This document shows, in pieces, positions 21,187 through 25,844 of a DNA stretch of 58,168 bases. The translations under genes were made by a program, and so were the position numbers. Below the pieces are notes generated by a model. That model had not been told where the DNA came from. It saw only the letters and a list, made by a program, of their open reading frames with translations, and made no database searches. Source of the stretch: Ferroacidibacillus organovorans (lineage in GTDB: Bacteria > Bacillota > Bacilli > Alicyclobacillales > SLC66); contig NZ_LSUQ01000012.1 of the NCBI RefSeq assembly GCF_001642725.1, positions 1-58,168 of the forward strand, read 5' to 3'. Positions within the stretch are counted from its first letter, which is position 1. Each line of letters starts with the position of its first letter.

Positions 21187-21467
21187 CCCTTGATCTCCTC
21201 CACCAAAAACGCAGTGCGTAAAAGTTCCCCTTTTGAAGATGTGACCTGCTCAACGCGCTGTTCTGCATTCTGCAGACGCGCTCGGCAAATTCCGACCAAT
21301 TGCATTCCCTCCTGATAGGTTGAAAGAGCCGCATCCAGTGACAATTCGCCACTCTCAAGCATTCTCACAACCTCTTCAAGTCGCGCCAGCGCCGACTCAA
21401 AGGGCACCTGTTGTTCATCAAGAGACGAAGATGTCGCTTGATCAGCGTCGTTCTCCTGTTGCTTCAT
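21183..21467 (-). CDS. xseB: Exodeoxyribonuclease VII small subunit
   Basis: 94 residues from ATG at 21467 with GGGGGG upstream; the frame runs on to 21506 without a site. The family core PFESALARLEEVVRMLESGELSLDAALSTYQEGMQLV is clear. It forms the small subunit of exonuclease VII, several copies per XseA. It overlaps the end of xseA by 26 bases and is coupled to ispA by a four-base overlap. Confidence 0.95.
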   Translation of the reverse strand: MKQQENDADQATSSSLDEQQVPFESALARLEEVVRMLESGELSLDAALSTYQEGMQLVGICRARLQNAEQRVEQVTSSKGELLRTAFLVEEIKG

Positions 21468-22806
21468 CGTCAAAAACCCCCCATACCTGGCAGTCCAGCG
21501 TGCCATCCATCATACGCAGTGTCACAGCATCCCCTGGTTGCACTTGCGCGATGGACGTAATCACCTGTTCATCCTTTTTTCTACTCTGAACAACCGCGTA
21601 CCCGCGATCGAGTACCGCCAACGGATTGAGCAATTCGAGATACGCATTTGCCCGCGTGATCCTTTGGTGCGCAGCCTCAAGAAACCTTTGCAGCGCTCGC
21701 TCATGGCGCTCTGTCAAGTGGTCAAGCGTTCGTCTCATTTGTGCGACGCGGTCAAACGGGGCACTTTTCGAAAGGCGAAGCTCCAGACCATCCAAGCGGC
21801 GGACAGCTCCCGAAATTCGACCTTTCACACCGCCGTCGAGTTGTCGCTCCAGATGATCAACACGCTGATGAAACCCGTCAAACGCGCGCAGCGGTTCTGC
21901 GAGGACTTGGCGTGAAGCCACCCGCTCAAATCGGGCGTACGCCTGTTTGATATGCAGGGTCACGGTAGATGTCATGCGCGTCTGCGCCTGTTCAAGGTGA
22001 TGAAGTAGCGCACCGCCATCCGGCGTCGCGAGTTCCGCCGCGCCAGTCGGCGTAGGCGCGCGCCGGTCGGCGACAAAATCGGCAAGCGTCACATCAGTCT
22101 CGTGACCGACCGCAGAAATGACCGGGATGCGCGATGACGCGATAGCGCGCACAACCAATTCTGAACTAAACGCAAACAGTTCCTCAAAGGAACCGCCGCC
22201 TCGCCCTACGATCATCACATCCGCAAGGTTGTGATCGGATATGAGCCGAATACCCTCCGCGATCTGTACAGATGCCTCCGCGCCTTGAACCGCCACCGGC
22301 ACGATCACGACTTCCGTGAGCGGAAAGCGTCTGCCAAGCGTTGTCAGCATATCGCGAACCGCCGCACCAGTCGGCGACGTGACGAGTGCGATGCGGGTAG
22401 GAAACGTCGGCAATGCGTGCTTGCGCGACGCTTCGAACAGACCTTCTGCCTGCAATTTTTCTTTTAACTGCTCATACGCGATATAAAGTGCGCCAACGCC
22501 GTCTGGCACAATTTCATCCGCATACATTTGATATTCGCCTGAACGTTCAAACACGTCGATAGAGCCCTTCACGACCACACTCATGCCATCGCGCAATTCG
22601 ACGCGCAAGGCGCGCGTACGACTGACAAACATGACCACTTTAACGCGCGATAGTGCATCTTTTAATGTAAAATAGAGATGCCCACTCTGCGGCTTACTAA
22701 AATTCGAAATCTCACCGCGCACAGATACGTTTTGCAAATCAGGCGTGCGCGTGAGGACGGTCTTCACGGTTTGCGTCAATTCAAAAACACTGAGGACACG
22801 TTCCAT
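21442..22806 (-). CDS. xseA: Exodeoxyribonuclease VII large subunit
   Basis: 454 residues. N-terminal OB fold with NVSVRGEISNFSKPQSGHLYFTLKD, then the catalytic core with ALVTSPTGAAVRDML, the VGRGGGSFEELFAF motif and AVGHETDVTLADFVADRRAPTPTGAAEL split over the active site. A coiled-coil region (about 270-390) follows. It digests single-stranded DNA to oligonucleotides with XseB. Starts 13 bases after folD and overlaps xseB by 26 bases. Confidence 0.97.
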   Translation of the reverse strand: MERVLSVFELTQTVKTVLTRTPDLQNVSVRGEISNFSKPQSGHLYFTLKDALSRVKVVMFVSRTRALRVELRDGMSVVVKGSIDVFERSGEYQMYADEIVPDGVGALYIAYEQLKEKLQAEGLFEASRKHALPTFPTRIALVTSPTGAAVRDMLTTLGRRFPLTEVVIVPVAVQGAEASVQIAEGIRLISDHNLADVMIVGRGGGSFEELFAFSSELVVRAIASSRIPVISAVGHETDVTLADFVADRRAPTPTGAAELATPDGGALLHHLEQAQTRMTSTVTLHIKQAYARFERVASRQVLAEPLRAFDGFHQRVDHLERQLDGGVKGRISGAVRRLDGLELRLSKSAPFDRVAQMRRTLDHLTERHERALQRFLEAAHQRITRANAYLELLNPLAVLDRGYAVVQSRKKDEQVITSIAQVQPGDAVTLRMMDGTLDCQVWGVFDDEATGERR

Positions 22807-22819
22807 GGAAAAAAACCCC

Positions 22820-23668
22820 TTACCCCTGCTGTTGCATCTGTGCCGCGCGCACCGTGTTTGACAACAGCATCGCGATGGTCATTGGACCCACGCCTTTTGG
22901 AACGGGCGTGATTTTTGAAGCGACAGATTCAACCGATGAAAAATCGACATCTCCACAAATTTTACCATCGACGCGATTGATACCTACATCGATGACGACA
23001 GCGCCTTTTTTTACATCATCGGCTGTTACAAACCGCGGGATTCCAACCGCCGCGACGAGCAGATCCGCCTGTCTCGTCCAATCGCGCATGTTTTTTGTTC
23101 GAGAGTGACAAATGGTCACGGTGGCGTTTGCCTGTAAAAGAAGATTGGCCATCGGTTTACCTACGATGTTTGAGCGCCCGATGACTACCGCATGCATTCC
23201 TGCAAGATCAATCTGCTCATAGCGTAGAAGCTCCATAACGCCAAGCGGTGTACAAGGCACCATGCGGTTCGTTCCAATCGAAAGTGCGCCAACATTCCGC
23301 TCATGAAAACCGTCCACATCTTTTTCAAACGCGACGCGCGCTACTACGCGTTGTTCGTTCATGTGCGCCGGGAGCGGCAATTGCACCAGAATGCCGTGTA
23401 CGAGCGGATCTTGATTCAACCGATCAAGCGTGTCAAGAATGACTTGCTCCTCTGTTTCCGCCGGAAAACGCATGATGTCAGACGCGATGCCAACACTCTG
23501 TGCGGCCTTCTCTTTCCCGCGGACATAGCTCGCGGATGCGGGATGATCCCCGATCAGTAGAACAACGAGGTGCGGCGTGACTCCCTCTTTTTTTAAGGCA
23601 TGTACCTTTTGCGCTGTCTCTTGACGGCTGATATCCGCCCAGTGAGCACCATCAATGATCGTTCCGAT
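22820..23668 (-). CDS. folD: FolD bifunctional methylene-THF dehydrogenase/cyclohydrolase, apparent AUC start
   Basis: Interconverts 5,10-methylene-THF and 10-formyl-THF for purine and one-carbon metabolism. Motifs: YVRGKEKA with the catalytic lysine, VHGILVQLPLP and the VVIGRSNIVGKPMANLLL nucleotide-binding segment, and GGVGPMT replaced here by KGVGPMTIAMLL. The only ordinary in-frame start is the ATG at 23473, which would delete about 65 residues including the catalytic lysine. The family N-terminus (GTIIDG) instead reads from an ATC at 23668, eight bases after a strong GGAGG, giving 282 residues, the normal FolD length. An in-frame TGA directly precedes that ATC. I therefore propose initiation at AUC; a sequence error or disabled start is the alternative. 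Confidence 0.9.
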   Translation of the reverse strand: MGTIIDGAHWADISRQETAQKVHALKKEGVTPHLVVLLIGDHPASASYVRGKEKAAQSVGIASDIMRFPAETEEQVILDTLDRLNQDPLVHGILVQLPLPAHMNEQRVVARVAFEKDVDGFHERNVGALSIGTNRMVPCTPLGVMELLRYEQIDLAGMHAVVIGRSNIVGKPMANLLLQANATVTICHSRTKNMRDWTRQADLLVAAVGIPRFVTADDVKKGAVVIDVGINRVDGKICGDVDFSSVESVASKITPVPKGVGPMTIAMLLSNTVRAAQMQQQG

Positions 23669-23691
23669 TCAAATCCCCTCCATACGGCTCA

Positions 23692-23717
23692 GGGGCGATC
23701 ACAACTGCGATCGCCCC
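23692..23717 (-). terminator. Hairpin between the ferredoxin-NADP reductase gene and folD
   Basis: GGGGCGATC (23717-23709, minus) pairs perfectly with GATCGCCCC (23700-23692) around an eight-base loop, six bases after the reductase stop. No T tract follows, and the structure ends 24 bases before the folD start. It could be a terminator or a leader structure acting on folD. Confidence 0.45.
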
Positions 23718-23722
23718 ATCAC

Positions 23723-24739
23723 TCAACCTTTGCGACTGCTGCTGTGCCCCGGATGCAGCTTTGAAGCTGGGTCAAGATAGATTTTTGCGTGATTGACAGC
23801 CGTTGGCGCTTCGCCAAATCCTGTCGCTATCAACTTGATCTTACCTGGATACGTCACGATATCCCCCGCTGCAAAAACGCCAGGAATGTTTGTCCCCATT
23901 CGAGTGTCCACAACGATCGCATTATCCTCAATCGTAAGGCCCCAATTGAGAATCGGGCCAAGCGATGCGGAGAAGCCCAAACTGCTCACAATCGCGTCAG
24001 CTTCAACCCGAATCGTTTCCTTGCTGCGATTCTCGACGAGCGTCACGTGCGACAGCCAATTCTCACCCTCAAGCGCTTGAACTTCATAGAACGTTTTTAC
24101 GTCGACGCCCGAAGCGTGAAGCGTCTTTACATTTTCTTCGTGCGCCCTAAACTGATCGCGGCGATGCACAAGAATAACCTGCTTTGCTACATGCTCGAGC
24201 ATCAATGCGAAATCAACCGCGCTATCTCCGCCACCGACGACCACGACGCGCTTACCTGTAAACTTTTTCATGTCATCAACATAATAATAAATACCTTTGC
24301 CTTCAAACGCTTTGGCATTAGAAACCGGAAGCGGCTTCGGGGTGAATGCGCCAATCCCACCTGTAATGATCACTGTTTTTGAATAGTGAACACCGCGATC
24401 CGTGGTTAACTCAAACACTTGGTCGTCACGTTTGACAAGTCCGGTCACTTTCTCACTCAAACAAAGGGTCGGGTGGTACTGTTTCGTTTGTTCAACAAGT
24501 TGATCAACCAAATCCATTGCCTTGACTTTGGGAAATCCGGCCACATCGTAAATGTACTTTTCCGGGTACAATTCTGAGAGTTGCCCTCCGAGTTGCGGGA
24601 GGCTATCGATAATCTTTGTACTCGCATCGCGAATGCCTGCGTAAAACGCAGTAAAAAGTCCAGTTGGGCCGCCGCCAATCACTGTGATATCATAGACTTT
24701 CGTATCAGTGCGATCCTTAACTTCCATCGGTGTTGACAT
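23723..24739 (-). CDS. Ferredoxin/flavodoxin--NADP+ reductase, thioredoxin-reductase-like (YumC type)
   Basis: 338 residues from ATG at 24739 with GGAGG nine bases upstream. Two dinucleotide folds: FAD motif VIGGGPTGLFTAFYAG near the N-terminus and NADPH motif VVGGGDSAVDFAL about 165. The C-terminal GDIVTYPGKIKLIATGFGEAPTAVNHA is typical. The CxxC pair of true thioredoxin reductases is absent, which places it in the YumC-type FNR group that passes electrons between NADPH and ferredoxin or flavodoxin. It has its own candidate promoter (24787-24814). Confidence 0.93.
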   Translation of the reverse strand: MSTPMEVKDRTDTKVYDITVIGGGPTGLFTAFYAGIRDASTKIIDSLPQLGGQLSELYPEKYIYDVAGFPKVKAMDLVDQLVEQTKQYHPTLCLSEKVTGLVKRDDQVFELTTDRGVHYSKTVIITGGIGAFTPKPLPVSNAKAFEGKGIYYYVDDMKKFTGKRVVVVGGGDSAVDFALMLEHVAKQVILVHRRDQFRAHEENVKTLHASGVDVKTFYEVQALEGENWLSHVTLVENRSKETIRVEADAIVSSLGFSASLGPILNWGLTIEDNAIVVDTRMGTNIPGVFAAGDIVTYPGKIKLIATGFGEAPTAVNHAKIYLDPASKLHPGHSSSRKG

Positions 24740-24786
24740 CTTCCGTCCCCTCCAGATCACGTAAAAATACGATCATGCACGCGAGT

Positions 24787-24857: not shown

Positions 24858-25844
24858 TCACAAAGGATTCTGCCACGCCGCGAGTAACGCCACCCCGTAC
24901 GCATTGTCAGAAGCATAGAATGGATCGCACAGTTGAAGGTCAATCGCGCCGTGTCCGCTGTTCTGAACAAAAAACCGTTTTTGCAAGCGGTTTTTGATGC
25001 GTTGATTTGAAGCGACCCCACCCACGAGCAAGACGCGGCGTGTTCCTGTTTTTTCAACGGCGAAACGAATCATCTTTTCAAAGGTATTGGCAATCACGCG
25101 GAAAACAGATGCCGCAAGTTGTGCATCCGTTACGTTAGCGTTGCGCGCACGCTCAAGCGCCGCGAGTGGACCTGAAAAGCTTGGAGAACCTTGCTTTACC
25201 ACACTCGGCAATTCGAGCAGTGGAAGATCGTCCGGGTGCGCCTGCGCCAATACCTCAAGCTTTGCGCCCGCCGGAAATGGCAATCCGAGACTGACACCTA
25301 TGCGATCAACAAATTGCCCGACATGCAGATCAAGGCTAGAACCGAGTGTTTCGACACAAAAATCGCTTCCGTCAAACGAGACGTGAAGCAAATCGGTCGT
25401 ACCACCCGATGCGTGGATCGCGAGAAAGGGCTGAACCCCCCCATCACGCATCCACCCCACCGTCTTTACGCCGGCTGCCAAATGACCGGATTGATGGGAT
25501 GTTTTTAAGCATTCCACGCCAGCCCCTAGCGCCAGCGCCTCCGCCCCCAAACGTCCCGCGAGAAACACAGGCATATAAGAACCCGCGATTCTGCGCGGCG
25601 CGTCGCTACACGCGATGCCTGCGATCCATTTCCCCTCTAGGTGTTCCGAACAAGCTAAAAAAAAGGACGGCAGTCTCTGAACATGCTGAAACAGCGCCTC
25701 AGACTGGCGAAGACCGCGCGCGCCGTTTGGCACATCAAGGAGAAGGCGTTTCTCAAAAACGATGTCCCCGCTTGCCGATACAGCACAAAAAGAGGTCGTG
25801 TAATTGCTAGTGTCAAGACCGATAAAAATCGCGGCGTCCCTCAT
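24858..25844 (-). CDS. TsaD/Kae1-like (glycoprotease M22) paralogue
   Basis: 328 residues of the ASKHA/Kae1 fold: FIGLDTSNYTTSFCAV (phosphate 1), the metal-binding HxxxH as TSHQSGHLAAG, the ASGGTTDLLHV loop, and the C-terminal LLVGGVASNQRIKNRL. True TsaD makes the t6A modification with TsaB and TsaE; it has an HMxGH motif and lies elsewhere. This one has a shorter, variant sequence and sits between nusB and a ferredoxin reductase, as a TsaD paralogue does in some spore formers. Its substrate is unknown. The start overlaps the nusB stop by four bases (ATGA), so it belongs to the nusB unit. Confidence 0.78.
   Translation of the reverse strand: MRDAAIFIGLDTSNYTTSFCAVSASGDIVFEKRLLLDVPNGARGLRQSEALFQHVQRLPSFFLACSEHLEGKWIAGIACSDAPRRIAGSYMPVFLAGRLGAEALALGAGVECLKTSHQSGHLAAGVKTVGWMRDGGVQPFLAIHASGGTTDLLHVSFDGSDFCVETLGSSLDLHVGQFVDRIGVSLGLPFPAGAKLEVLAQAHPDDLPLLELPSVVKQGSPSFSGPLAALERARNANVTDAQLAASVFRVIANTFEKMIRFAVEKTGTRRVLLVGGVASNQRIKNRLQKRFFVQNSGHGAIDLQLCDPFYASDNAYGVALLAAWQNPL

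Follow-up and report, generated by a model that had tools for sequence, protein, structure and literature searches.

Where does translation of folD begin when its reading frame offers no ATG, GTG or TTG at the place where the protein should start? The question is raised by Ferroacidibacillus organovorans, in a stretch of 58,168 nucleotides (the window) that is one whole contig of a 3.03-Mb draft genome in 98 contigs, here called G000. A preliminary description of this DNA had proposed an AUC start, and the proposal gains support from a second genome of the genus (G001) that has the same codon, from alignment to the canonical starts of relatives and from a GGAGG at the same spacing. It is very probable that this genus begins translation of FolD at AUC, with a CAU initiator tRNA that mispairs and a GGAGG that compensates, initiation being in place but weak.

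The folD frame and its start

The features discussed below are collected in Table 1. From the ATC at 23668-23666 the frame reads ATC GGA ACG ATC ATT GAT GGT and remains open for 282 codons, up to a stop codon at 22822-22820. The particulars of the preliminary description hold on the minus strand: the ATC stands eight bases from GGAGG, a TGA lies in frame just before it, the protein counts 282 residues, and the next canonical codon is 23473, beyond the YVRGK region. There is no in-frame ATG, GTG or TTG ahead of this ATG, which falls downstream of ASYVRGKEKAA and would leave a protein of 217 residues. The locus thus has no ATG, GTG or TTG at the true start and an AUH codon at Shine-Dalgarno distance, and the predicted duplex with a typed anti-Shine-Dalgarno sequence amounts to -9.8 kcal/mol (-10.8 kcal/mol in G001). 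A mini-frame, ATG GAG GGG ATT TGA (window 23683-23669), abuts the folD ATC and is missing from G001.

Table 1. Features at and around folD, in window coordinates.
Feature	Position	Strand	Remarks
folD CDS	22820..23668	-	bifunctional methylene-THF dehydrogenase/cyclohydrolase; 282 codons from ATC, plus stop
ATC (AUC) start codon	23666..23668	-	predicted; same codon in G001; aligned to the canonical starts of relatives
Shine-Dalgarno GGAGG	23677..23681	-	eight bases (23676-23669) from ATC
In-frame TGA	23669..23671	-	directly upstream of ATC; CAC in G001
First in-frame canonical codon, ATG	23471..23473	-	65 codons in; past the YVRGK region
Leader hairpin, GGGGCGATC-8 nt-GATCGCCCC	23692..23717	-	no T run after it
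Upstream gene	23723..24760	-	pyridine nucleotide-disulphide oxidoreductase; ORF from its first GTG
Downstream ORF	21442..22806	-	ordinary ATG start, common to G001

Both FolD domains score above their curated cut-offs, namely PF00763 (residues 5-119, 129.5 bits against 32.8) and PF02882 (residues 122-279, 235.4 bits against 27); among the best 25 of 30 NCBIfam matches, no FolD model was found at its own cut-off. Relatives of solved structure are matched as well (e.g. 3l07, E 1e-84), and since many of them align from residue 3 or 4 onward and both domains are present, the ATC is where the start should be. The Tyr...Lys region (YVRGK), which we take to be catalytic, is present, ASYVRGKEKAA aligning with SKTYVASKEKA of 3l07. 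This is the single FolD of G000, the only second match being weak and 46 residues long.

Conservation within the genus

A search of 60 further genomes contributed one more genome of the same genus, G001, and conservation within the genus is therefore one comparison. The two folD genes share 82% of their nucleotides and about 89% of their protein residues, and are alike at 69 of 139 comparable fourfold-degenerate sites. The preliminary description had suggested comparing the codon in close relatives, and in the one other genome of the genus (1/1) ATC is kept: it occupies the same codon, GGAGG precedes it at the same eight-base spacing, the leaders align without gaps and ATC GGA ACG ATC is identical. 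Because 17 of the 19 shared Ile codons are identical between the two genes, identity of the ATC is by itself weak evidence; the weight of the argument lies with position, spacing and the TGA. That a sequencing or assembly error created the ATC is extremely unlikely, since, even if the window belongs to a draft in 98 contigs, both codon and spacing recur in a separate genome whose folD is only 82% identical.

The two genomes also speak to translation of the first 64 codons, those upstream of the first canonical codon. Between G000 and G001 the changed codons among them are 22 synonymous against 11 nonsynonymous, with differences by codon position of 8/4/25, the behaviour of coding sequence. This bears on the possibility that FolD is a short protein of 217 residues made from the ATG at 23473, which, as the first canonical codon, is what a gene finder confined to ATG, GTG and TTG would be expected to call. 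We give it virtually no chance: such a protein would be left with half a catalytic domain and no YVRGK region, G000 would have no other FolD, and codons 1-64 evolve as coding sequence.

Starting upstream of the ATC is a different matter, because in G001 a TTG stands in frame eight codons ahead of the ATC, within the bases beside the leader hairpin, so that another start is possible there, although G000 lacks this TTG and has the TGA in between. To serve both genomes, upstream initiation would have to use this TTG in G001; in G000 it would need either the ATG at 23683 with readthrough of the TGA (e.g. by selenocysteine) or an overlapping TTG at 23672 with a +1 shift. Machinery for the former may be at hand, as both genomes have a tRNA-Sec match above the cut-off and a DsbA-like frame with UGA in the place of a Cys (see the last section). 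Against this, GGAGG would fall inside the reading frame in both genomes, G001 has CAC for the TGA and neither the ATG nor the overlapping TTG, relatives have no Cys at the TGA position, and the RNA fold shows no strong hairpin after the TGA, which together make an upstream start highly unlikely. The start common to both genomes would be the ATC, since the TGA of the window excludes an upstream start for the pair.

When 57 frames of the window were compared with G001 for a shared early start, the only one besides folD to have none was 24861-25712 (some rows that were small or shifted by indels had none either and were discounted by eye). The gene concerned (24858-25844), which we take to be TsaD-like, has its N-terminus in another frame in G001, which points to a frameshift or an assembly error there.

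Start codons of folD in wider relatives

How far does the AUC start extend? The test was whether the frame offers a canonical codon at or close to the N-terminus of the family (at most eight codons away in the phylum sets), and one was available in all the other folD genes that were read (153/153). This holds for the other genomes of the same family (16/16), for the next family (f2; 30 of 41 genomes read, second FolD copies excluded), for two further genomes of the class and for a further set of contigs (15/15 loci). At the level of the phylum, PF00763 is present in 287 of 299 genomes, and among the matches listed a canonical codon lies no more than eight codons from the family N-terminus in 90/90, a set of 30 loci and 60 short regions taken from the top of the listed matches. 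A search for related loci with folD retrieved only distant folD genes. Conservation of AUC is thus limited to the genus (1/1 other genome of the genus against 0/16 of the same family), and with 153/153 other genes canonical it looks like a change that arose in this genus.

The alignment behind these counts also locates the start to the codon, as the position of the ATC is occupied by ATG, GTG or TTG in 15/15 same-family loci shown. Initiation at a near-cognate codon just inside the gene, for which ACG at codon 3, ATC at codon 4 and ATT or ATC at codon 5 are candidates present in both species, is very highly improbable, because these stand 14 to 20 bases from GGAGG rather than eight and it is the ATC at eight bases that falls exactly where relatives have their start codons. 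Comparison thus places the predicted folD start at this ATC and finds it conserved in two species.

The AUC start may also be real and yet serve no regulation, a weak codon that drift fixed in the ancestor of the genus and that the strong Shine-Dalgarno makes tolerable; the lack of recurrent AUC use in the 153 other genes is in favour of this reading. On the other side, the codon has been kept in two species in which half of the comparable fourfold sites have changed, while AUG is a single base away. We rate drift without regulation at even chances.

AUH starts elsewhere and the initiator tRNA

A scan of G000 for AUH starts, which covered 28% of the genome (858,168 bases with 750 coding frames), flagged seven frames, only two of which are convincing, namely infC (AUU) and folD (AUC). 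The others are a UGA-containing DsbA-like frame, three frames with an ATG behind a purine-rich stretch (in one case at the second ATG) and one frame of ambiguous start (contig C17, 12890-14020). Since the scan requires a coding score and a Shine-Dalgarno-like word, weaker AUH cases would escape it.

For infC the pattern extends well beyond the genus. The infC locus was read in G000 and 19 further genomes from across the order, 20 of the 21 in which infC was matched. In all 20 loci the conserved ISK/ISR N-terminus begins with ATT (13), ATA (6) or ATC (1), each time behind a G-rich Shine-Dalgarno. An in-frame canonical codon is also found further upstream in 7/20 loci; G000 and G001 both have ATT and no canonical codon upstream. 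As infC of G000 starts at AUU, this genome makes use of AUH initiation, as does the order at large, where by analogy IF3 autoregulation would operate too. That infC keeps AUH starts across the order also weighs against drift as the whole explanation of folD, since such starts are evidently not simply lost there. The parallel with infC drawn in the preliminary description is therefore apt, infC being an AUU gene here, but its statement that such starts are otherwise known for infC was too narrow, in view of sigR, cvfC1, ccpN and citZ.

Altered decoding, in which an initiator tRNA would read AUC through a changed anticodon, was considered and rejected: a typed anticodon-arm pattern, which would miss genes outside it, matched two initiator tRNA genes in G000 and two in G001, and the anticodon is CAT in 4/4.

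The leader and neighbouring genes

Upstream of the Shine-Dalgarno lies a GC-rich hairpin with arms at 23717-23709 (GGGGCGATC) and 23700-23692 (GATCGCCCC), which RNAfold lengthens to 11 pairs. It had been described as a perfect hairpin 24 bases upstream; the hairpin is real, the distance is 23 bases before the ATC. The pattern GGGCGATC-N(4-14)-GATCGCCC has one match each in G000 and G001, both in the folD leader, and its reversed control has zero matches in these genomes. The eight-base arms are identical in the two genomes and the loop is different, the next outer pair being G-C in one and A-U in the other. An intrinsic terminator was rejected, as no T run comes after the hairpin and neither a terminator-like nor a promoter-like site occurs in 23600-24000. 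The hairpin may act as an RNA element, as a DNA operator or as a structure that insulates the ribosome-binding site. Of the neighbours, the upstream gene has thioredoxin reductase as its best NCBIfam match, below the cut-off of that model, and is presumably of the ferredoxin-NADP reductase type; the downstream ORF we take to be xseA-like.

Formyl supply

No match to formate-THF ligase (Fhs) was found in G000 or G001, two draft genomes estimated to be nearly complete, and Fhs is matched in 5/21 genomes. G000, which has one FolD and no Fhs match, should thus depend on a working FolD, and the 10-formyl-THF of the genus probably comes mainly from this enzyme. Linking the AUC start to the loss of Fhs fails, since folD has a canonical start in six genomes of the same family in which Fhs likewise has no match, a point that fits a start fixed by drift. 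The formyl-using genes do not share the unusual start either: there are three genes with a formyltransferase domain in each of G000 and G001 (of PurN, PurU and Fmt type by sequence), the fmt-like gene fits TTG in both genomes and the PurN-like and PurU-like genes have ATG available.

Comparison with known systems and possible mechanism

The folD start belongs to a known kind, that of AUH-started genes outside infC, and a metabolic gene lengthens the short list of these; a literature search among open-licence papers found no report of folD with an AUC-type start. The closest parallel is infC itself (IF3; AUU, AUC or AUA, autoregulated), which like folD has its AUH codon behind a strong GGAGG; FolD is a metabolic enzyme and not IF3, so direct self-repression is not expected. 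In Streptomyces, IF3 represses non-canonical starts, as shown for sigR, which has a GTC start and is likewise a gene other than infC whose non-canonical start was missed by ordinary annotation; it differs from folD in its codon, in encoding a stress sigma factor and in having been shown experimentally, whereas the folD start comes from comparison (PMC5472188). Within the Bacillota, ribosome profiling of S. aureus has mapped AUH starts in other genes, namely cvfC1 (AUU), ccpN and citZ (AUA), with an extended Shine-Dalgarno noted at infC, cvfC1 and ccpN, and the output of AUU or AUA reporters was about 10% of that of AUG in poor medium, reaching up to 30% for ccpN in rich medium; the folD site, in contrast, is placed by comparison only (PMC13009471). 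The second chromosomal AUU start of E. coli, that of pcnB, reportedly limits expression too; the gene encodes a poly(A) polymerase and the codon is AUU (cited in PMC13009471).

How would a ribosome start at this codon? Ordinary fMet-tRNA would read the AUC with a mismatch at its third base, and the strong Shine-Dalgarno would hold the ribosome in place, so that imperfect pairing offset by GGAGG would give initiation that is correctly placed but weak. We infer insertion of fMet at the AUC, an output below that of AUG, and discrimination by IF3 against the codon like that at the AUU of infC. The AUC would then limit FolD expression, and by analogy with infC, sigR and ccpN the gene should be sensitive to IF3 and to initiation fidelity.

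FolD is a telling case because its product helps to set the strictness of start-codon choice in E. coli, where 10-formyl-THF supplies formylation of the initiator tRNA and the FolD variant G122D loses initiation fidelity through less initiator tRNA formylation and less rRNA methylation, in tests that concern initiator tRNA selection (PMC7949028, PMC10197868). The retrieved portions of these two papers describe neither an unusual folD start nor use of AUC. This dependence makes a feedback loop possible, hypothetically, in which the start codon is itself the sensor, much as AUU is for IF3: (i) a drop in 10-formyl-THF would reduce initiator tRNA formylation and rRNA methylation and make initiation laxer, (ii) laxer initiation would increase use of the folD AUC start and hence FolD, and (iii) once formyl supply had recovered, fidelity would rise and folD would be throttled. 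That the AUC start places FolD in such a homeostatic loop is, in our estimation, rather unlikely, and one base change in a reporter could show whether the start codon acts as a metabolic sensor. Independently of any loop, gene finders restricted to ATG, GTG and TTG misplace starts of this kind, shortening an important enzyme by 65 residues here.

A selenoprotein candidate

The DsbA-like frame of the AUH scan (thioredoxin domain; G000 contig C3, locus L108, 17712-18341) has a TGA at the first Cys of the CPFC motif of its relatives (UPFC). Four genomes share this TGA (G000, G001, G005 and G011; loci L108, L237, L238 and L239), and the more distant G020 and G008 have TGT or TGC in its place. With tRNA-Sec matches in G000 and G001 as well, the frame likely encodes a selenoprotein.
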